DNA of 64,000 nt, taken from Synechococcus sp. SynAce01. GTDB taxonomy: Bacteria > Cyanobacteriota > Cyanobacteriia > PCC-6307 > Cyanobiaceae. The notes beneath the pieces were generated by a model. That model was not told the DNA's origin and made no database searches. It saw only the letters and a list, made by a program, of their open reading frames with translations. Position numbers and translations under genes: made by a program. The DNA lies in the NCBI RefSeq assembly GCF_001885215.1, contig NZ_CP018091.1, positions 186,001-250,000 of the forward strand, given 5' to 3'. Positions 6,526 through 18,353 of the stretch are shown here, in pieces; position 1 is the first letter of the stretch, and each line of letters starts with the position of its first letter.

Positions 6526-6975
6526 TCAAGCTTCAGCCAACTCCAAGCTGATGGCTTTCTCCACAGCAGCTGGCAGGTTGCGCGACACAGGGCAGAGCTT
6601 CATCCGCCGACTGATGAAGGCGATGGCCTCGTCATCGGCGCGGGCCAACTCCTCGGCGGGCGCTCCAGGATCAAGCGTCAGGCGGAAGTGGCCATTCACC
6701 TGCTCAAGAATCCAGTCAGAACTGGTGATCACCGTGAACGTCCCCTCCACCCGTTGCAAGGGAATGGCCCGCTCCTGGGCATTGGCCACCAGATAAAAGT
6801 GCTGGCAGAGCAACAACGAAAGCAGGTAGAGCCGGAACCCTGGTGTGCTGAGGCTTGGGTGTTGTGCTTGCCAGTCTCCGGAGTCAGCGTGGAATTCCAC
6901 CAGAAGTTCATCGCTGGCAGGGTCGGCAGCACCGTGGCTGCTGCACAGCCGGAACTCAAACGTGCGTGTGCTCAT
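6526..6975 (-). CDS. OsmC-like protein of the sulfide locus
   Basis: 149 residues resembling OsmC/Ohr proteins. A cysteine lies in a central helix (LLCQHFYLVANA), followed by a strand region (RVEGTFTVITS) and a C-terminal helix holding the second cysteine in the family context (RMKLCPVSRNLP). OsmC proteins reduce organic peroxides through two cysteines, and related forms occur in sulfur-transfer clusters. The start codon overlaps the stop of the TauE/SafE gene (ATGA), so translation is coupled. A role in persulfide or peroxide handling is inferred from position only. Confidence 0.62.
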   Translation of the reverse strand: MSTRTFEFRLCSSHGAADPASDELLVEFHADSGDWQAQHPSLSTPGFRLYLLSLLLCQHFYLVANAQERAIPLQRVEGTFTVITSSDWILEQVNGHFRLTLDPGAPAEELARADDEAIAFISRRMKLCPVSRNLPAAVEKAISLELAEA

Positions 6976-7826
6976 GGCATGGACCTCAGGGATAGGGGAG
7001 CAGAACGGAAGCTGATCGGCGCGGCACGTTGGGCGCTGGCGGTCTGGCGGCGAACAGCCTCCATGCCACTGAGCAGGGCCGAGCCGATCAGCAGGGCCGC
7101 GAAACCGCGCCGCAGCTTGCGGTCATTGAGCCGGGGGGCCAGCCACTGGCCCAGCCCGGCGCCGATCGCCCCGCCAGCCAGCAGGGGCAGCACCAGCGGC
7201 AGGCTGGCCGCCGGCCAGTGGCCCAGGGCTTCGAGGGCCACCAGGCTGTTGGTGATGATCAGCAGCAGGCTGGTGCCACTGGCCAGCGGCATCGGCAAAC
7301 CGGCCAGCAGCACCAGGGCCGGCACTAGCGCGAAGCCTCCACCAACGCCGGCAATGCCGGTAAGCAGACCCACCAACACCCCCTGGACGGCCAGGGCGGC
7401 TGGCCGGCGCAGCGTCCCGCTGGCTGAGTGGGTGCGATCATCTTCATCTGCGGCCGGGCCACGCCGGGTGAGCAGCCAGGAGGCGACCAGGGCCGCCACA
7501 GCGAAGATCCCCAGCTGCACCGGTTCGGAGATCAAGCCGGCCTTGACGAGGCTGCCGCCGATCCAGCTTCCCGCCAATGCCGGCACGCCCAACACCAGGG
7601 CGGGCCGGAGGGCCACCTGGCGGCGGCGCAGGTAAGGGCCGATGTTGGCCAGCGCCAACACAATCACAACAACCAGGGAAAGGGGAATGGCCTCCTTGGC
7701 CGGCAGCCCGGCACCGCTGATCAGCAGGGGTAACAACAGAATCGAACCACCAGCCCCGAGCACCGCCAGCAGGAAGCCGATCAGGGCTCCGCCGAGGATC
7801 AACAGCAGGGCGGTGGAGGTGATCAT
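6972..7826 (-). CDS. TauE/SafE family sulfite/anion exporter
   Basis: About 284 residues with eight or so membrane helices and the paired glycine-rich repeats of TauE/SafE permeases (LLAVLGAGGSILLLPLLI, then LTGIAGVGGGFALVPALVLL). Family members export sulfite, sulfoacetate or related anions. The ATG at 7826 overlaps the rhodanese stop (ATGA), and the 3' end overlaps the OsmC start, so it sits inside a translationally coupled operon. Next to a persulfide dioxygenase, which makes sulfite, export of sulfite is the simplest reading. Confidence 0.82.
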   Translation of the reverse strand: MITSTALLLILGGALIGFLLAVLGAGGSILLLPLLISGAGLPAKEAIPLSLVVVIVLALANIGPYLRRRQVALRPALVLGVPALAGSWIGGSLVKAGLISEPVQLGIFAVAALVASWLLTRRGPAADEDDRTHSASGTLRRPAALAVQGVLVGLLTGIAGVGGGFALVPALVLLAGLPMPLASGTSLLLIITNSLVALEALGHWPAASLPLVLPLLAGGAIGAGLGQWLAPRLNDRKLRRGFAALLIGSALLSGMEAVRRQTASAQRAAPISFRSAPLSLRSMP

Positions 7827-8332
7827 GCCCTCACCCGGTTCCAGGGCATGGCAGCAAGCAGGCGGGCCATGCCGCAGAAGCCGCTGACCCCGGCAAAAAC
7901 AAGGCCAGCCCCCACGAAGCCAGCCAGCCAGATCCATCCCGGTGCCACGGTGCTGAGGATCACACCGAGAAGCACCAGCCCCCCGGCCGCGATCTGCACC
8001 TGGCGCATCAGCGGCAGGGGAGCGCCGCTGCGTTTGTGGATCGGCAGCCCCGCCTGCTGCCAGGCGTCGATGCCGCCGCTGAGATCGGTGAGGCGATCAG
8101 GGTGTCCCCGCCGCAACAGCTCGGCCAGTCCCTTCGCGCTGCGGTTGCCGCTCTGGCAAACCAACACCAATGGTCCCTCGGGGAGGGAGGTGCGGCCCAG
8201 CCGGGAGAGGGGAATGTTGCGGCTGCCCGGGATCGATCCGCTGCTGAATTCAACCGGCTCGCGCACGTCGACGACGCTGATCGGGTCGCTCTTGAGCTGG
8301 TCGGCCAGCTGGCGTGGGGTTTGGGAGGTCAT
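7823..8332 (-). CDS. rhodanese domain plus DUF2892 membrane domain
   Basis: 169 residues from the ATG at 8332. The N-terminal half is a rhodanese domain with an active-site loop LVCQSGNRSAKG whose cysteine would carry the persulfide. The C-terminal half has two hydrophobic helices (QIAAGGLVLLGVILSTVAPG and WLAGFVGAGLVFAG) typical of DUF2892. This would hold sulfurtransferase activity at the membrane. It starts 11 bp after the dioxygenase gene and overlaps the TauE/SafE gene. Confidence 0.82.
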   Translation of the reverse strand: MTSQTPRQLADQLKSDPISVVDVREPVEFSSGSIPGSRNIPLSRLGRTSLPEGPLVLVCQSGNRSAKGLAELLRRGHPDRLTDLSGGIDAWQQAGLPIHKRSGAPLPLMRQVQIAAGGLVLLGVILSTVAPGWIWLAGFVGAGLVFAGVSGFCGMARLLAAMPWNRVRA

Positions 8333-8343
8333 GGCTCGTGTGG

Positions 8344-9507
8344 TCAAGGCAGTTGTGGTCGAGGCTGTGGGGATGAAGCGTCGGCGAAGTTGAGGGGGTA
8401 GCCATTGGCCTGCCAAGCACGCAGACCGCCGCGAAGGTTGGCCACCTGGGGACGTCCTGCCTTGAGCAGGAGCTGGGTCCCCAGAGCCGAGCGACTGCCG
8501 GAGTGGCAGAGCACCACGACGGGTTGATCCTTTGGGATCTCAGCGGTCCGTGCCTCCAGTTCGGGCAAGGGGATCAGCAGGCTGCCGGCGATGCGACCAT
8601 CGGGACCATCGAATTCCTCGGCCGAGCGCACATCCACCACCACCGCCTCGCCCCGATGGCTGGCGAGCCAGGCCGGCGGCAGCTCGGGCAGGCCGGCATA
8701 ACTGCGCTGGACCTGCGCCCAGGAGGCACCTCCGGCCGTTGAATCCTCGCGGGGTTTGCCGGAACGCAGATTGCCGGGCAGGGCGATGGCGATGCGGTGG
8801 GGGTGGGGCAATTTCATCGTCTCCATGTAGACGACGAAATCGCGTTCGTTGGCCTCGCCACCGAGGCGGGCGTTGAAGGCCTTCTCCTCAGCCACCGAGG
8901 TGACGCCTCGGCCGGTGTAGTCGTGGCCTGGATAAAGCAGGCAGGACTCCGGCAACGAGAGGAGTTGCTCGGTGATCGAGCGGTAGAGGGTATGGGCGTC
9001 GCCCTGCTGGAAGTCGCAGCGGCCGCAGCCCCGCACCAGCAGGGCGTCGCCACAGAAGGCCAGGCTGTGGTCGTCGAGTACAAAGCTGAGACAGCCATTG
9101 GTGTGCCCCGGTGTGGCGCGCACCTCCAGGGCCCGCTCTCCGAAGGCCACCCGATCACCGTGCTGCAGGGGCAGGCTCACGTGTTCCGCCCCGACGCTGG
9201 CGGCCAAACCGATGGCGCTGCCGGTGGCGGCGTGCATCAGCCAGCTGCCCGTCACGTGGTCGGCGTGGGCATGGGTGTCGAGGCAGGCCAGCAGCTCGAT
9301 GCCCAGTTCGCGGATCAAGGAGAGATCGCGGTCGTGCTGCTCGAAAACCGAATCGATCAGCAGGCCCTGGCGGCTGCTGACATCGGCGAGTAGGTAGGTG
9401 AAGGTGCCGGTGCCGGCGTCAAAGAGCTGGCGGAAGAGCAGGGGCTGACCACCGGCTGCAGCGGCCAGGGACAGGGCGGCAGACGCTGGAGCGCGAGCAA
9501 CGGCCAT
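8344..9507 (-). CDS. persulfide dioxygenase-rhodanese fusion
   Basis: 387 residues from the ATG at 9507. The N-terminal ~240 residues are an ETHE1-like metallo-beta-lactamase domain with the metal motif THAHADH, a downstream TPGHTNGC and the ETHE1-type FCGDALLVRGCGRCDFQQG. The C-terminal ~110 residues are a rhodanese domain with active-site loop VVLCHSGSRSALG. ETHE1 enzymes oxidise glutathione persulfide to sulfite with O2 and iron; rhodanese fusions also move sulfane sulfur to or from thiosulfate. It is the first gene of the leftward operon and is divergent from the ArsR regulator. Confidence 0.88.
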   Translation of the reverse strand: MAVARAPASAALSLAAAAGGQPLLFRQLFDAGTGTFTYLLADVSSRQGLLIDSVFEQHDRDLSLIRELGIELLACLDTHAHADHVTGSWLMHAATGSAIGLAASVGAEHVSLPLQHGDRVAFGERALEVRATPGHTNGCLSFVLDDHSLAFCGDALLVRGCGRCDFQQGDAHTLYRSITEQLLSLPESCLLYPGHDYTGRGVTSVAEEKAFNARLGGEANERDFVVYMETMKLPHPHRIAIALPGNLRSGKPREDSTAGGASWAQVQRSYAGLPELPPAWLASHRGEAVVVDVRSAEEFDGPDGRIAGSLLIPLPELEARTAEIPKDQPVVVLCHSGSRSALGTQLLLKAGRPQVANLRGGLRAWQANGYPLNFADASSPQPRPQLP

Positions 9508-9642
9508 GGGAGAGCAACGGCAACTGCTATGAGCATAACCGCATAAAGAGCTTAGAAGCGTTTTTTTTATGAGCGCAGTGGAGTTAGGCGCCAGGGTTGA
9601 CATGTTTTTGGCATAATGCTTTGAGCGTCATAAAGACCATTC
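9508..9642. promoter_or_regulatory. divergent control region of sulfide operon and arsR gene
   Basis: The 135-bp gap between the dioxygenase gene and the ArsR gene is AT-rich against its surroundings. CATAAAGA occurs twice (9542-9549 and 9629-9636), each preceded by GCATAA a few to about fifteen bases upstream. TATG and CATA also flank the first copy as a short inverted repeat. These are candidate operator elements for the ArsR protein. A TTGACA-like hexamer is at 9597-9602, but no well-spaced -10 follows it. Inference from position and repetition. Confidence 0.45.
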
Positions 9643-9984
9643 ATGGCCGCCGCCGATTCCATGCCCAGCCCCGAGCTCCTCGAAGAACTCAGCGGTTTCT
9701 TTCGGCTCCTGAGTGAACCGGCACGCCTGCAGTTGCTCTGCCAGCTCAAGCACGGCAAGGCCAGGGATGTGACCTCCCTGATCGAAGCCACGGGCTTCAG
9801 CCAGTCGCACATCAGCCGTCAGCTCGGCCAACTACAGCGTGCCGGCCTGATCCGTTGCGAACGTGATGGCACGCGCCTGATTTACACGGTGGCCGACCCG
9901 TTGGTGGAGGAACTCTGCAACCTGGTTCAGGGCCGCCTGAGGCAGCGCTTGGAGAAGCAACTTCGGCAGCTGCAGGCGGTCTGA
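9643..9984 (+). CDS. ArsR-family repressor, likely sulfide/persulfide responsive
   Basis: 113 residues with a winged helix-turn-helix of the ArsR type (recognition region SQSHISRQLGQLQRAGLI, wing CERDGTRLIYTV). Cysteines occur at 33 (LLCQLKHG, early helix), 72 (IRCERDG) and 92 (EELCNL, last helix). Persulfide sensors SqrR/BigR of this family use one cysteine in an early helix and one in the last helix. The positions here are similar but not proven equivalent. The gene is divergent from the persulfide dioxygenase operon and convergent with sqr, which fits a sulfide regulator. Confidence 0.8.
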   Translation: MAAADSMPSPELLEELSGFFRLLSEPARLQLLCQLKHGKARDVTSLIEATGFSQSHISRQLGQLQRAGLIRCERDGTRLIYTVADPLVEELCNLVQGRLRQRLEKQLRQLQAV

Positions 9985-9998
9985 TCACTCCGGCTTGA

Positions 9999-11291
9999 TC
10001 ACGGCTGCTGATGCGCCAGCCCCAGCCAGCGCACCAGCGGAGCCAACGGCTTGATGAAACGACTTTCGAGCAAGCGACCCTTCAGTACCCGATTCCAGTA
10101 CACCCAAGGGAACACCCGTGTTTCCACCAGCCACATGCTCCAGCGCTCCTTGGTTGGATCCACGAGGAAGGAGCTGACCGGCTGGAGCTGGTAGTCAAAT
10201 TCCGCCATCACCACGCGGCCAAAACCGGTGATCAACGGGCAGGCCGTATAGCCGTCGTACTGGGCCGGTAGGGGAGCAGCATCGAGCTGGGCCAGCAGGT
10301 TGGCCACCAACACCGGCGCCTGGCCACGGATGGCGGCCAGGCTCTTGGAGGTGGGCAGAGAGCTCACATCACCGAGGGCGAACACATCGGCAAAGCGCTT
10401 GTGCTGGCAAGTGAGCCTGTTCACGTCCACCCAGCCACCCGGTCCTTTGATGGCCAGGGGACTGGCGGCCATCACATCAGGGGCCGACATCGGCGGCACC
10501 ACATGCAAGAGGTCGAAGTGGATCGCCTCTTGCTGGGGCGGCTTACCTTCTGAGCTGACCTCGAAGATCGCCAGCTGTTCCTCGGCGCGCACCTCGATCA
10601 AGTTGTGGAGCAGACGGGTCTCGATCCCCCGGCGCGCCACGACGCGCTCAACCGTGGCGTTGTAGGCCTTCACCGGATAGAGATGGGCCAGGGCCGTGCA
10701 GAAGATCACCCGGGCGTTCACGCCCACACCGCTGGTGGCCTGGAAGATGTCATCGGCCAGATACATCACCTTCTGGGGAGCACCGCCGCATTTGATCGGG
10801 GTGGCAGGGTGGCTGAAAACAGCCGTACCACCCTTGAAGCTGCGGATCGCCTCCCAGGTGGTCGCGATGTGGGCGCGTGAGTAGTTGCTGATGATGCCGT
10901 AGCTGCCGAGTGCCTCCGGCAGCCCTTTGATCTGACTCCAATTGAGCTGGAGACCCATGGCCACCACCAGCACGTCGTAGCTGAGGGCTTCGCCGGCGGC
11001 CGTGATCACCCGGCGGGCCTGGGGTTCAAAACTTGCGGCGCTGCCCTGAATCCAGACAGCCCCAGCCGGGATCACGCTGGCCTCGGAACGGTGGGTCTGC
11101 TCGAGCGCCAACAGACCAGCTCCAGCCGGGATCCAGCCGGACTGGTACTCGTGGACGGCTGCGGGCTCCAGGATGGCCAGATCCAGGCCGGGCCGAGCCC
11201 GCAGCAACTGGGCCGCGACGATGAGCCCGCCGGAGCCGCCACCGACAATCAAAACCTGGAAGTGCCTTGCGCTGGAAGCAGATTCAGCCAT
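9999..11291 (-). CDS. sqr: sulfide:quinone oxidoreductase, type II
   Basis: 430 residues. An N-terminal FAD site (VLIVGGGSGGLIVAAQLL) is followed by the type II SQR hallmark HPATPIKCGGAPQKVMYLAD with its catalytic cysteine, and a C-terminal FAD-contact segment LGDVSSLPTSKS. The C-terminus has aromatic and basic residues for membrane docking. The enzyme oxidises sulfide to sulfane sulfur and reduces quinone. In human SQOR the second redox cysteine lies directly after GD; here that residue is valine, but a cysteine lies slightly upstream (LTCQHKRF). It is transcribed leftward towards the convergent ArsR gene. Confidence 0.87.
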   Translation of the reverse strand: MAESASSARHFQVLIVGGGSGGLIVAAQLLRARPGLDLAILEPAAVHEYQSGWIPAGAGLLALEQTHRSEASVIPAGAVWIQGSAASFEPQARRVITAAGEALSYDVLVVAMGLQLNWSQIKGLPEALGSYGIISNYSRAHIATTWEAIRSFKGGTAVFSHPATPIKCGGAPQKVMYLADDIFQATSGVGVNARVIFCTALAHLYPVKAYNATVERVVARRGIETRLLHNLIEVRAEEQLAIFEVSSEGKPPQQEAIHFDLLHVVPPMSAPDVMAASPLAIKGPGGWVDVNRLTCQHKRFADVFALGDVSSLPTSKSLAAIRGQAPVLVANLLAQLDAAPLPAQYDGYTACPLITGFGRVVMAEFDYQLQPVSSFLVDPTKERWSMWLVETRVFPWVYWNRVLKGRLLESRFIKPLAPLVRWLGLAHQQP

Positions 11292-11508
11292 CTCTCCATC
11301 CCGAGCTCGCCTTTAGCTCTAACCCGGCCTGGCGCGCCGTGCCGCCATTGGCACATCTGTTGATGCGTTTGTAGCCATAAGCGGGTAAGAGCCAGCCTGG
11401 CGCAGCACGGCGAAGACCAACAGCCCAGTCCCGATGCTTGCACTAGAATTGCTAGGCCTTTATGCGTTTAGAGCCATGAATTGCCTTGACCGGGGTGAGC
11501 TTCGTCCG

Positions 11509-11982
11509 ATGCAATGGTTGCTGGGCGTCCTGCCGCTGCTGATGGCGTTGTTGCTGGGAACGTCGCCAGCCCTTGCGGCGGATACCTGGTCGCTCAGCGA
11601 TCAGGCGGGCCATCGCCTCAGCGCCCAGGTCTTTGAGCAGCCTTTCCCGGAGTACCCCTCTGGCCTGCGCATCCGCTTCAACGCCCTGGATGCCAAAACA
11701 ACCCTGGATCACGGGACCGATCTGGTCTTGAGCGATTCGCTGGGTCAGGAGTGGAACCTGCCCAATCGCAGCGAAGAAATCGTGCCCAGCGATGGCTCAG
11801 TGGTTCCCGCCGGATCGGCCCAGTTCGATCTCGATGCCTTGATGCCACGGCCCAGTGAAGCCCTGCCCCTCCACGTCGCCGTTCCCAGCGGCCAAGGTGT
11901 TCTTGACTTCAACCTCAGCCCCGAGCAGGTGCTGGAACTCCACGCGATGGGATCGGTTCAGCGGCGCAGCGACCTGACCTGA
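11509..11982 (+). CDS. secreted DUF3122 protein (copy 1)
   Basis: 157 residues from the ATG at 11509, which has a purine-rich GGGGTGAG about nine bases upstream. ATGs at 11476 and 11434 are alternatives. The signal peptide (QWLLGVLPLLMALLLGTSPA) ends near ALA-AD. The mature domain matches the cyanobacterial DUF3122 family: WSLSDQAGHRLSAQVFEQPF, a central EEIVPSDGSVVPAGSAQFD and a C-terminal LSPEQVLELHAMG. A second copy lies at 51660-52208. It is divergent from sqr. Function is unknown; probably lumenal or periplasmic. Confidence 0.72.
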   Translation: MQWLLGVLPLLMALLLGTSPALAADTWSLSDQAGHRLSAQVFEQPFPEYPSGLRIRFNALDAKTTLDHGTDLVLSDSLGQEWNLPNRSEEIVPSDGSVVPAGSAQFDLDALMPRPSEALPLHVAVPSGQGVLDFNLSPEQVLELHAMGSVQRRSDLT

Positions 11983-12058: not shown

Positions 12059-12601
12059 TCATGGCCAATTGTTCGCTGATGGGATCACAGCTTGTTCTGC
12101 GGCTTCCCAGCCAACGAAACCAGGCGGGAAACCCTTGACACGATCAAAGCCCTGCAGCTGAAGGGCCATCACGGCCATGGCCGCTCGATACCCGGTTGAG
12201 CAATACACAACGACGTCTTGATCGTGCGGAACGGCATCAAGATGCCGTTCCAAGTCGCTGAGCGGAAGATTGATCGCTCCAGGGATGTGACCAACCTCAT
12301 ACTCCGCTGGATTACGAACATCGATAAGCATAGAATTGCCAGCTTCGATCAGGCTCTTCATGGCTGGAACCGAGCCGATCGCATGAAAATTTGCGGGCAG
12401 GAGATCAAGGTAGTGACCAACAGCTGTTTCTATTGGGGTTGGATTCACTGAAGTTGTTGGCACTGTGGTTGCAGCCGCCGTGTTAGCAGCCATGGCGATT
12501 GGATGGCTACCAATGCCAAGCAGAATAAAAGCCATCAAGGCAACGCCAAAAAGCGCTGAGGTGATCGAAGCCCAGATTTTCTGGTGGGGAACAGTGTTCA
12601 T
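12059..12601 (-). CDS. secreted or membrane-anchored rhodanese
   Basis: 180 residues from the ATG at 12601. A hydrophobic N-terminal segment (ALFGVALMAFILLGIGSHPIA) acts as signal peptide or anchor. The rhodanese domain follows, with SMLIDVRNPAEYEVGHIPGA and active-site loop VVYCSTGYRAAMAV. It would give a sulfurtransferase outside the cytoplasm, complementing the cytoplasmic rhodanese domains at 7823-9507. It lies at the edge of the sulfide locus but is separated from it by convergent genes. Confidence 0.78.
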   Translation of the reverse strand: MNTVPHQKIWASITSALFGVALMAFILLGIGSHPIAMAANTAAATTVPTTSVNPTPIETAVGHYLDLLPANFHAIGSVPAMKSLIEAGNSMLIDVRNPAEYEVGHIPGAINLPLSDLERHLDAVPHDQDVVVYCSTGYRAAMAVMALQLQGFDRVKGFPPGFVGWEAAEQAVIPSANNWP

Positions 12602-12715
12602 GCGCTCAGCAACTTTTGAACATTGGCGAAGCCAGTAAAAGCCTGCCAGCGATTCCAGCAGCACCGCCCCACCCCCGTCAGCACGGGGTAGACAACGTTA
12701 AGGGCGAAAGGCATC
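12598..12715 (-). pseudogene. decayed 3' part of a DUF4079 gene
   Basis: Translating the minus strand gives a C-terminus (WQAFTGFANVQKLLSA) nearly identical to that of the intact DUF4079 gene at 30830-31234 (WQAFTAIAIVQKLLSA), and the DNA is similar over the last ~65 bp. The preceding hydrophobic core is missing. A 25-bp segment at 12795-12819 is also identical to one just upstream of the intact gene, suggesting that both ends of a duplicated gene survive around a deletion. Confidence 0.6.
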
Positions 12716-12794
12716 GGACTTGAGCGGAGGTCGTGGACCCGCAAAAGCGGCCTCCACCCGATTCTGGCTGGTAGATCCATCAAAATCCATCGCT

Positions 12795-12819
12795 GAATCG
12801 GCAGCGATCCTGGAGATCC
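12795..12819 (-). repeat. 25-bp perfect repeat shared with 31266-31290
   Basis: The segment gaatcggcag...gagatcc is identical at both places, and flanking bases also agree in part. At 31266-31290 it lies just 5' of the DUF4079 coding region; here it lies between DUF4079 and Rieske relics. This is best read as a leftover of a duplicated DUF4079 upstream region. Confidence 0.75.
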
Positions 12820-13124
12820 CCTCCTGCCAGGCCGGCATCGTCGTACTGGCTGCCGTGGCAAAGGCAGATGAACTTCCCTGGCGCCGAATCCCAAGGCACG
12901 ACGCAGCCCAGGTGGGTGCGGATGGCGTTGATGCCGTAGCCGTTGATGGCATCGCCGCCCTGATGGCTGTTGAGCCAGCCAGCGGCCGTGATTGGGCTAC
13001 CCAGCTCGTCGCGGACCATCACTCCCCCGCCGCCGGCCGCCGAACGGGGCGGAATGAAGAACCGGCCCGTGAGTTCAAAATCAGGTGGTGGTGGCGACCA
13101 CCGAAATCCAGCCACAGTGTCCAA
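12820..13124 (-). pseudogene. Rieske iron-sulfur protein (petC-like) relic
   Basis: The minus strand encodes a shortened Rieske domain: a hinge-like [14 protein letters not shown], then [14 protein letters not shown], then [16 protein letters not shown] and [14 protein letters not shown]. Compared with cyanobacterial PetC, the transmembrane N-terminus, about 15-20 residues before YGINA and the whole C-terminal part are missing. The first cluster cysteine (normally CTHLGC) is arginine, so no [2Fe-2S] cluster could form. The frame then runs into unrelated sequence containing the 25-bp repeat. Clear non-functional relic. Confidence 0.75.
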
Positions 13125-15686: not shown

Positions 15687-18353
15687 TCAAACAATGAGCC
15701 AGAAGCCACCGACTGTTAGTCCAACCATCAAGAGAAGGTGGGGCAAGTTGCTCAGTAGCGTCCGTTTTGTGATTCTCAACAGCGGATAGAGGCTGAACAC
15801 CAGAGCTGCAAGCAATGTCACGCCCTGTATGAAGACGGCTACATCAGCGCTCCAGGTGAGAATGGGTAAACCAATCCCGCTGAATCCAAGGCTGCGGGCA
15901 AAAACTGGCACAATCTTCCCCGCTTCTGTCATCGCCGCAGGCACATAGTGAGCCAGATTAAGAGCCAGGGTGAAAGGAAGATAAGCGTAAATAGCCGTGA
16001 GATAGGGAGGCTGGTCGGGATCAAATCGGCGCGCGATCGCATGCGCCAGATAGGTCGCCAAAGCCGGAAGACTGAGCAAGAGCAGTGCAATCACGGCGCT
16101 GCTCCAAAAATGCTGGGCATCAACCGGTACAGCAGGGAATCCAAATGCAGAGAGGATTCTTTCGCTGTGGTGCATCAGTACACCGCCCAAAAGCAACAAC
16201 AGGAGGGCCACTTCAGCCCAGAATCCCTGGTGATTCTCCAGCAGATCTGTGGTGGGAAAGCGCAGATTAAGCTGAACCGAACGATTCGGGCAGGCTTTCA
16301 AGCAGGTCATGCACAGAACACAATCACGATTATCTTGAAGCTGTGCGGGATGTGAATAGAGCGGGCAGCCCCCCGTCGCCTGCCCTTCGCTAGCAAGCGA
16401 ATCGGCAAAAGTAACAGTCGTAGCGTCGCTCCCCTTGTAGCATCCAAAAGTGCTGCATTGGCTACCACACACCTGTTGATCTGAGCGCAACTCAACCATG
16501 GCGAGTTTGGCAAACATGCCATTCATGCCACCGATGGGGCAGAGATAGCGGCACCACAAACGCCGCTCGTAGATCAGGCTACAAATCACCGCTCCTGCGG
16601 TAATCGCCAGGAGCAGCCAGGCCGAGAGATAGGCACTGTTGGGCAAGTCCCAGAGCTTTTCCCATAGATAAATCACCACAAAGCCGCCGAATAGCACCCA
16701 CGCCCCCCAGCGATTGAGCCATTGGGTTGGCCACGGCAGCTGCTGGCGAGGGAATAACCACAGCGAGGCGCGTCGCAACCATTCCGCTGTGATCATAAAG
16801 GGACAAACTGCACACCACAGCCGGCCAATGAAAACAAACAACAGCAAATATCCCGGCCACCACCAAGCCCAAAAGAAATTCAAGGTCACACTGCTCTCTC
16901 GTGTTTGCGGCCCCAAAAATCCAGCCAGGGTTACGGGCACAAAAAGCGCCATCATCACGATCCACAGACCTTCGGGGTACCAGCGGCTCAGCAAAAGACC
17001 CCTTAGCCAGGGAATCTGGGTGAGCAGGTCGACGCGGAAGGCATTTCTTGGCGACTGCACCGACCAAAGAGCCTGCTCTGGAATGATCAACTGCCCGGCA
17101 GGTGACATAATCACTGCACGGTTAAGAATCGCCGCTAGCTCTATGATGTTGCCGGGATAGGCATAGCTGATCAGGCGGCGTAGATCCGACTGAGAGAGGG
17201 TCATCAGTGGACGACTCTGGGCTTGACAAGACTGCGCGAGGAAGTGACTAGTAAAGTCAGGAATATCAGCCTTTCGCTGGGAAAGACTGAACAGTTTGAT
17301 CGTCATACCCTCAAAGCCTGAAAGTACCAACTTTTCAGGAGATGTAAAAATGAGCCGTACCAACGACGGAAAAGTTTTGGGGGTACTATTGGACGCAACA
17401 TTGAGCTGAATGTTGCCAGTGTTGCAATAGGCAATCAGACGAGCTTGATCCTCCACACTGAGAACCTGGAGGTTGCTCAGCAACAACGTTCCACGCTCCA
17501 TTAGTTCAATGAGCCCGGCCTCAGACCCTTCACGGCCAAATAACAAATCTGTGTTGAGGGCACCATGTGCTGATCGAGGCAGCTGCCCACAGTCCAGTTC
17601 TGCAAAAGGTTGGTCTGCCAGGCCCGAGCGACTATGAATCAGCCCGGCAACGAAGGTCTTACCAGAGCCCTTCGGCCCGAGCAGGACGACCGGCTGGAGC
17701 AGCGTGGCAGCTTGGTCAATCGTGTCGTTCAGCTTCTGGCTGAATTTGCTGCTGCCCAGGATGGTCTCGCCTGCTGGCACCGAGCAGATGTAATCCCGCA
17801 ACCCTTGGACGCGTTGCTGTTCCCGGGCGATACGGGTGCTAAAGGCATTGAGATCTTCAGCCAGCACAGTATTGAACAGATGCTCAATCTCGGTGTACTG
17901 CTGCGTGAGCTGCCGCAACAGACGCTGGGGCAAAAACCAGATTTCACTGGCTGTCAGGGCGATGGCCTGCGTCTGGTGTTGGGCGCTGCCTGGATTGGCC
18001 AGGAGCGAAACGTAGCCAAAAAGCTCACCCGCACTGCGCTGACGAATGAGTGATTGACCGATCGGAGAAAGCCGCTGAATCTCTACGGCCCCCCACTTCA
18101 GCAGATACAATCCCAGTGACGATTGACCTTCACGGTAGATCAGCGTTCCAGCTTCAACCCTCAGCAGGTGTAGCGATCGCGCTAATTCTTTTCGGGCAAG
18201 ATCAGGTAGCTGCCCCCAGAGGCGATGGAATTGCAGCCAGTTTGAGTACTCTTGAATGCGGCTCTCCTCTTGGGCAGGCATTCCTTCAAGGCCCATTCCC
18301 AGAGGTCGATGATCGAGGCCTGAAGGGTGAGGGCTGGGGAAAACACTAACCAT
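15687..18353 (-). CDS. cNMP-binding / degenerate sigma54-type AAA+ / polyferredoxin membrane protein
   Basis: 888 residues with three parts. About 45-165: cyclic-nucleotide-binding (CRP/FNR-type) sensor domain (IYREGQSSLGLYLLKWGAVE). About 195-425: AAA+ domain derived from sigma54 enhancer-binding proteins, with Walker A GPKGSGKT (226-233) and YPGNIIEL near 400, but no GAFTGA loop and a Walker B region reading GTLLLSNLQ without its acidic residues. About 450-888: NosR/NapH-like membrane part with several helices, cysteine pairs WCAVCP and WCRYLCPIGG, CGSQCSTFGC, and a ferredoxin motif CVLCMTCLKACP (678-689). It looks like a redox sensor or electron-transfer protein rather than a DNA-binding activator; no HTH is seen. 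HIP1-type GCGATCGC sites occur inside the gene. Confidence 0.8.
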   Translation of the reverse strand: MVSVFPSPHPSGLDHRPLGMGLEGMPAQEESRIQEYSNWLQFHRLWGQLPDLARKELARSLHLLRVEAGTLIYREGQSSLGLYLLKWGAVEIQRLSPIGQSLIRQRSAGELFGYVSLLANPGSAQHQTQAIALTASEIWFLPQRLLRQLTQQYTEIEHLFNTVLAEDLNAFSTRIAREQQRVQGLRDYICSVPAGETILGSSKFSQKLNDTIDQAATLLQPVVLLGPKGSGKTFVAGLIHSRSGLADQPFAELDCGQLPRSAHGALNTDLLFGREGSEAGLIELMERGTLLLSNLQVLSVEDQARLIAYCNTGNIQLNVASNSTPKTFPSLVRLIFTSPEKLVLSGFEGMTIKLFSLSQRKADIPDFTSHFLAQSCQAQSRPLMTLSQSDLRRLISYAYPGNIIELAAILNRAVIMSPAGQLIIPEQALWSVQSPRNAFRVDLLTQIPWLRGLLLSRWYPEGLWIVMMALFVPVTLAGFLGPQTRESSVTLNFFWAWWWPGYLLLFVFIGRLWCAVCPFMITAEWLRRASLWLFPRQQLPWPTQWLNRWGAWVLFGGFVVIYLWEKLWDLPNSAYLSAWLLLAITAGAVICSLIYERRLWCRYLCPIGGMNGMFAKLAMVELRSDQQVCGSQCSTFGCYKGSDATTVTFADSLASEGQATGGCPLYSHPAQLQDNRDCVLCMTCLKACPNRSVQLNLRFPTTDLLENHQGFWAEVALLLLLLGGVLMHHSERILSAFGFPAVPVDAQHFWSSAVIALLLLSLPALATYLAHAIARRFDPDQPPYLTAIYAYLPFTLALNLAHYVPAAMTEAGKIVPVFARSLGFSGIGLPILTWSADVAVFIQGVTLLAALVFSLYPLLRITKRTLLSNLPHLLLMVGLTVGGFWLIV

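Follow-up and report, generated by a model that had tools for sequence, protein, structure and literature searches.

A candidate ArsR-controlled regulon for sulfide and persulfide oxidation in Synechococcus sp. SynAce01

A 64,000-nucleotide stretch of the genome of Synechococcus sp. SynAce01 (contig NZ_CP018091.1, positions 186,001 to 250,000; referred to hereafter as the window) carries a group of sulfur genes next to a gene for an ArsR-family regulator. The genome is complete (2.75 Mb) and belongs to the Cyanobiaceae; its named relatives are Synechococcus, Cyanobium and Vulcanococcus strains, and the host is described as a freshwater cyanobacterium. As listed in Table 1, the genes for an OsmC-like protein, a TauE/SafE family exporter, a rhodanese fused to a YgaP-like transmembrane (TM) part and a persulfide dioxygenase (PDO) fused to a rhodanese all run leftward. 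The arsR gene runs rightward, divergent from the PDO operon, and the gene for a sulfide:quinone oxidoreductase (SQR) runs leftward, convergent with arsR. Reading frames and family matches confirmed these six genes in the content, order and place given by an earlier reading of the sequence (the original prediction), and the gene calls, together with the match of SQR to human SQOR, bore out the divergent arsR gene and the nearby type II SQR. The four leftward genes had also been described as one overlapping operon, which holds for three of them: osmC and tauE overlap by 4 nt, as do tauE and the rhodanese gene, and PDO is separated from the rhodanese gene by a gap of 11 nt. PDO most likely starts at 9510 rather than at an upstream ATG at 9603, because an operator-like element and a -10-like element lie at 9528-9548.

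All catalytic residues that we checked in the enzymes of the locus are present. In PDO, H80, H82, D84, H136, D155, H196 and R164, as well as C335 of the rhodanese domain, were invariant in 59 of 59 aligned sequences. We take H80, H136 and D155 to be iron ligands and R164 to be the glutathione-site arginine, following the roles generally known for ETHE1. The protein has the residues of a persulfide dioxygenase-rhodanese fusion (PRF), namely the ETHE1 iron ligands, the glutathione-site arginine and the C-terminal rhodanese cysteine, and scored 86.1 bits against the NCBIfam model for Blh (NF040641), below its cut-off of 625. Cys59 of the YgaP-like rhodanese was present in 57 of 58 aligned sequences, the remaining row being a gap. 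The OsmC-like protein keeps both OsmC cysteines despite its weak Pfam score; Cys57 and Cys128, along with Arg48, Glu68 and Arg124, were invariant (28/28).

The SQR was closer to human SQOR (E = 1e-108) than to the SQR of A. aeolicus (E = 7e-8), and the same was true of its structural model (Z = 51.4 and rmsd, root-mean-square deviation, of 1.8 over 403 residues for human SQOR; Z = 36 for A. aeolicus SQR). The redox pair Cys168 and Cys351, which corresponds to human Cys201 and Cys379, was unchanged in all 40 sequences aligned, and the type II Sqr of S. saprophyticus carries an equivalent pair. Its likeness to the human and staphylococcal enzymes rather than to type I, together with both redox cysteines, places the protein in type II. 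A supposed loss of the second redox cysteine, arrived at through human SQOR Cys337 (GDC), was ruled out since human Cys379 aligns with Cys351. A further cysteine, Cys295 (TCQH), was present in all 20 SQRs of the locus-linked clade and absent from the other SQRs examined. The intact active sites uphold the enzymes and the likely route of the original prediction, from sulfide through persulfide to sulfite; export of sulfite by TauE, its last step, is one that we infer.

Dozens of loci repeat the order arsR-PDO-rhodanese-tauE(-osmC), and tauE keeps its operon position in most relatives. Among 300 Cyanobiaceae genomes, at the thresholds used, PDO was found in 111, ArsR in 107 and SQR in 94; PDO occurred with ArsR in 103, all three were present in 85 and none in 181. 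The co-occurrence of PDO and ArsR gave a Fisher p of 6e-65, a value that is not corrected for phylogeny. The recurring order and this co-occurrence show that the gene arrangement is not due to chance. In a sample of 292 genomes from the whole phylum, PDO was present in 85, spanning 55 of 116 genera, and 16 of the 85 had an arsR match (E 1e-18, counted by hand) no more than 1 kb away from PDO. The genes were divergent in twelve arsR-PDO loci of other families, usually with rhodanese and tauE genes downstream. Few oxygenic unicellular cyanobacteria had been thought to carry such a set; with PDO and ArsR this common the claim is unsupported, and it also conflicts with the counts of a 2020 study of 130 cyanobacterial genomes (59 with SQR, 85 with PDO, 54 with both; PMC7042703).

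An operator-like element, ATGCG-N6-(C/G)NCAT, overlaps the promoters of arsR and PDO and is also found upstream of the linked SQR. The arsR-side consensus, CATAATGCgT-tAtCG-CATA, came from 38 loci whose intergenic regions are otherwise hard to align, and the PDO-side consensus, CATwATGCGgcTATgcTCATA, from 22 loci. A position weight matrix (PWM) built without the window's own sites was run over the 64-kb window and gave scores of 28.3 for the arsR site and 25.9 for the PDO site; the third match, at DUF3122, scored 12.6, and shuffled windows reached 16.4 at most. A scan with the sigma-70 consensus found no promoters.

The element was largely restricted to these genes among relatives as well. The arsR-side pattern, GCATAATGNNNNNANCGNCATA, had 53 matches in the 300 genomes, every one of them on the strand of an arsR homologue and 10-54 nt ahead of it, and the reversed pattern had 0. 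The pattern was derived from about 38 of the matched or related loci, and the force of the test lies in the lack of matches elsewhere. On the other side, the element preceded 63 of 64 PDO genes (45/46 with an adjacent arsR and 18/18 without), against 0.0024 expected per 300 nt in coding sequence; in the 18 genes that lack an adjacent arsR it stood at about -35. In the locus-linked SQR clade, 17 of 19 upstream regions carried ATGC(G/T)-N6-(C/G)NCAT, for the most part in the perfect form ATGCG-N6-CGCAT, and 70-115 nt from the gene, compared to 4 of 19 for other SQRs. Sequences in these counts are related by descent and are not independent events. The SynAce01 genome contains four matches to the locus pattern, all within the sulfur locus, a count that shows absence elsewhere and not discovery. 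The evidence from predicted operators bears out the dedicated ArsR regulator of the original prediction and extends it to SQR. Two looser markers were rejected: the short palindrome ATGCG-N6-CGCAT alone was not specific, with 3 places in the SynAce01 genome and none at the sulfur locus, and a PDO-side pattern relaxed to 3 mismatches performed no better than its reversed control.

The ArsR protein scored above the cut-off of the general NCBIfam ArsR/SmtB model and reached 35.9 bits against the BigR model (NF040642), whose cut-off is 155. In an alignment of 37 sequences from across the phylum, the other members of which are 33-83% identical to the window ArsR, only 11 columns were invariant, and Cys33 and Cys92 are among them. 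In the structural model (pLDDT 90) two helices, residues 26-38 and 86-112, hold Cys33 and Cys92 respectively. Cys33 corresponds to the alpha-2 cysteine of the dithiol group that includes SqrR, BigR, YgaV and HlyU: by sequence for YgaV (ILCML) and by structural residue ranges for BigR Cys42 and SqrR Cys41. The cysteine at the end of alpha-5 in BigR (Cys108) and SqrR (Cys107) is absent from the window ArsR, which has about Arg100 at that place; its own invariant cysteine on alpha-5, Cys92, lies eight residues, or two helical turns, earlier. Cys72 was present in 41 of 46 Cyanobiaceae ArsR proteins and absent in the other families aligned. Four residues beyond Cys92, many ArsR proteins of other families (loci L153-L164) carry an additional cysteine.

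Table 1. Features of the sulfur locus and predicted operator sites (window coordinates).
Feature	Position	Strand	Remark
OsmC-like protein, last gene of the leftward operon	6526..6975	-	Pfam OsmC 21.2 bits, below the cut-off of 27.5
TauE/SafE family anion exporter (putative sulfite or thiosulfate export)	6972..7826	-	Pfam TauE 144 bits
Rhodanese fused to YgaP-like TM (DUF2892)	7823..8332	-	Pfam Rhodanese and YgaP-like_TM above cut-off
Persulfide dioxygenase (ETHE1 type) with C-terminal rhodanese fusion	8344..9510	-	Closest solved structure BpPRF, E 1.6e-118
Predicted operator, PDO promoter, CTTTATGCGGTTATGCTCATA	9528..9548	-	Second PWM match in the window
Predicted operator over the arsR -10-like CATAAT, CATAATGCTTTGAGCGTCATA	9612..9632	+	Top PWM match in the window
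ArsR/SmtB-family repressor with Cys33, Cys72 and Cys92	9643..9984	+	NCBIfam metalloregulator ArsR/SmtB above cut-off
Type II sulfide:quinone oxidoreductase (SQR)	9999..11291	-	Human SQOR, phmmer E 1e-108
Predicted operator upstream of SQR, TGATGCGTTTGTAGCCATA	11361..11379	+	One of four locus-pattern matches in own genome
DUF3122 protein, possible extra regulon member	11434..11982	+	Pfam DUF3122
Second predicted element between SQR and DUF3122	11460..11478	+	Overlaps a possible DUF3122 start codon; conserved in closest relatives only

Beyond SQR, two operator-like sites precede or overlap the DUF3122 start in the SynAce01 genome and its closest relatives. The DUF3122 protein adjoins SQR, arsR or PDO in many relatives, mostly without an operator site of its own. 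A single-domain rhodanese with an N-terminal hydrophobic stretch (12059-12664, minus strand) follows, and in relatives it is often near DUF3122 and SQR. An open reading frame at 12780-13124 (minus strand) has a Rieske-like motif, ends early and has no Pfam match; it is possibly a degraded petC-like gene adjoining the sulfur genes. Farther on, an 888-residue protein (15687-18353, minus strand) joins a cyclic nucleotide-binding domain, a sigma-54-activator-type AAA domain and a membrane 4Fe-4S (NapH-like) part in an unusual fusion; in loci L086 and L104 a relative of it lies downstream of the sulfur operon.

Judged from the sequence, the locus is likely to be a persulfide-inducible sulfide detoxification regulon with ArsR as a derepressible switch. 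At low levels of reactive sulfane sulfur, an ArsR dimer on the ATGCG-N6-(C/G)NCAT elements would block transcription of arsR, the PDO operon and SQR; persulfide or polysulfide would react with Cys33, Cys92 or both and release ArsR. SQR would oxidise sulfide at Cys168 and Cys351, pass the electrons to the quinone pool and yield persulfide, which PDO-rhodanese and the YgaP-like rhodanese may process together with sulfite or thiosulfate. TauE would export the oxidised sulfur, and the OsmC-like protein probably reduces persulfides or peroxides. The sequence shows the set of genes, their intact active sites, a conserved operator element confined to genes of the locus, and the invariant cysteines; repression, its ligand, the Cys33-Cys92 link, sulfite export and the part played by OsmC are what we infer. 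Outside support comes from Synechococcus PCC 7002: polysulfide strongly induced pdo, rhod and tauE (PMC12466478), and SQR and PDO of this strain placed in E. coli yielded sulfite and thiosulfate (PMC7042703). A wider proposal, which we hold tentatively and at slightly less than even confidence, is that the ArsR clade, paired with PDO in many families, became a persulfide switch by independent evolution, using Cys33 and the displaced alpha-5 Cys92, and that in the Cyanobiaceae it acts through a distinct operator, ATGCG-N6-(C/G)NCAT, on a small regulon of arsR, the PDO operon and SQR.

Several observations weigh against a persulfide-inducible regulon of this kind. The sites upstream of SQR in the window are weaker than those of arsR and PDO. 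In PCC 7002, sqr fell under polysulfide while pdo rose (PMC12466478), so control of sqr may differ; the sqr of that strain is of type I. Cys92 is off the position of the second cysteine in SqrR and BigR, and a Cys33-Cys92 crosslink is unproven. The operator count in the SynAce01 genome is partly circular, the pattern having been written from its four sites, and the data from relatives are not circular. Finally, the ATGCG...CAT operator was not seen in the arsR-PDO regions of other cyanobacterial families (loci L153-L164), which have a TACTATA-like dyad in its place.

ArsR might instead sense a metal or metalloid (arsenite, antimonite or a thiophilic metal) and switch on the sulfur genes as a side effect, much as sqr lies in arsenic-related clusters in Synechocystis PCC 6803. 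The protein belongs to the ArsR/SmtB family by model, SmtB, CzrA and AntR are among its best matches of known structure, their Z scores close to or tied with those of SqrR and BigR, and arsenic-related sqr clusters do exist in cyanobacteria (PMC11304991). A metal sensor is nonetheless unlikely: a gene for arsenic or metals was not found in the operon, sulfur genes are what recurs in the neighbourhood, the operator is restricted to the arsR, PDO and SQR genes, and in PCC 7002 the homologous pdo-rhod-tauE genes respond to polysulfide (PMC12466478). We regard it as quite improbable that ArsR is a general oxidant (peroxide) sensor working through a Cys33-Cys92 disulfide, with the operon as an oxidative-stress module. 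RexT of Nostoc is a cyanobacterial ArsR redox sensor (PMC8960804), and both the two invariant cysteines and the OsmC-like thiol protein within the operon would suit such a role. The RexT cysteines, however, are a vicinal pair on alpha-3 (Cys40-Cys41; PMC8960804), and no vicinal cysteine pair is present in the window ArsR; the remaining genes of the operon are sulfur-specific, and the genes named for the response of PCC 7002 to H2O2 were others than the polysulfide-induced pdo, rhod and tauE (PMC12466478).

It is also conceivable, though very improbable, that the conserved element is a core promoter only, with CATAAT as the -10 hexamer, and not an ArsR operator. The arsR-side element does contain a -10-like hexamer near the start codon, but conservation extends past the hexamer to cover about 21 nt and includes the ATGCG...CAT dyad, the dyad recurs well upstream of SQR, and the arsR-side form, unlike an ordinary promoter, was found nowhere else in the 300 genomes.

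The enzymes are of a known and common kind and the pathway has been described, and control by thiol-based repressors is known from BigR, SqrR and CstR. Within the openly searchable literature (subscription literature lay outside the search, and Synechocystis SuoR outside the comparison), this ArsR clade as a cyanobacterial regulator, the position of its second cysteine, and the operator with its regulon appear to be undescribed. Polysulfide is known to induce cyanobacterial PDO genes, and no regulator was found named in the accessible texts; the locus offers a concrete candidate, two candidate cysteines and exact predicted DNA sites. Should the cysteine geometry truly differ from that of SqrR and BigR, it would add an example of how ArsR proteins discriminate persulfides from oxidants and metals. 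The findings also suggest that freshwater picocyanobacteria, a group generally viewed as strictly oxygenic, commonly place the handling of sulfide under a sulfur-specific control.

Of the systems already described, the BigR operon of Xylella fastidiosa and Agrobacterium tumefaciens (BigR, Blh and TauE) shares an ArsR-family repressor, a PDO-sulfurtransferase fusion and a TauE exporter with the locus (PMC5823870). The repressor there covers the -10 region and loses its activity through Cys42-Cys108 (PMC5823870). Blh, however, is a DUF442-ETHE1 protein whereas the window PDO is ETHE1-rhodanese; neither the window ArsR nor the window PDO reaches the cut-off of the corresponding model, the second cysteine is displaced by 8 residues, and an SQR is added. 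SqrR of Rhodobacter capsulatus provides persulfide-responsive, ArsR-family control of sqr and a rhodanese, and forms polysulfide links between Cys41 and Cys107 (PMC9995734). Cys41 aligns with Cys33, but Cys107 aligns with about Arg100 and not with Cys92; identity is low, at 22-24% by structural alignment, and the predicted operator of the window, an ATGCG...CAT dyad, is different. The fusion protein BpPRF of Burkholderia phytofirmans has the same order of dioxygenase and rhodanese domains in a different phylum. PCC 7002 resembles the locus in the polysulfide induction and SQR-PDO products cited above (PMC7042703, PMC12466478) and differs in its type I SQR; neither a regulator nor an operator was found described in the accessible parts of those papers. 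The cst operon of Staphylococcus (CstR, TauE, CstA, CstB and SQR; locus L171) is likewise a persulfide-responsive set with an SQR, a PDO-sulfurtransferase, a further sulfurtransferase and TauE, although CstR is of the CsoR family and the window regulator is an ArsR protein. The best reading is that the circuit would operate on the lines of BigR/Blh/TauE and CstR/CstB/SQR, although its sensor is not orthologous to theirs.

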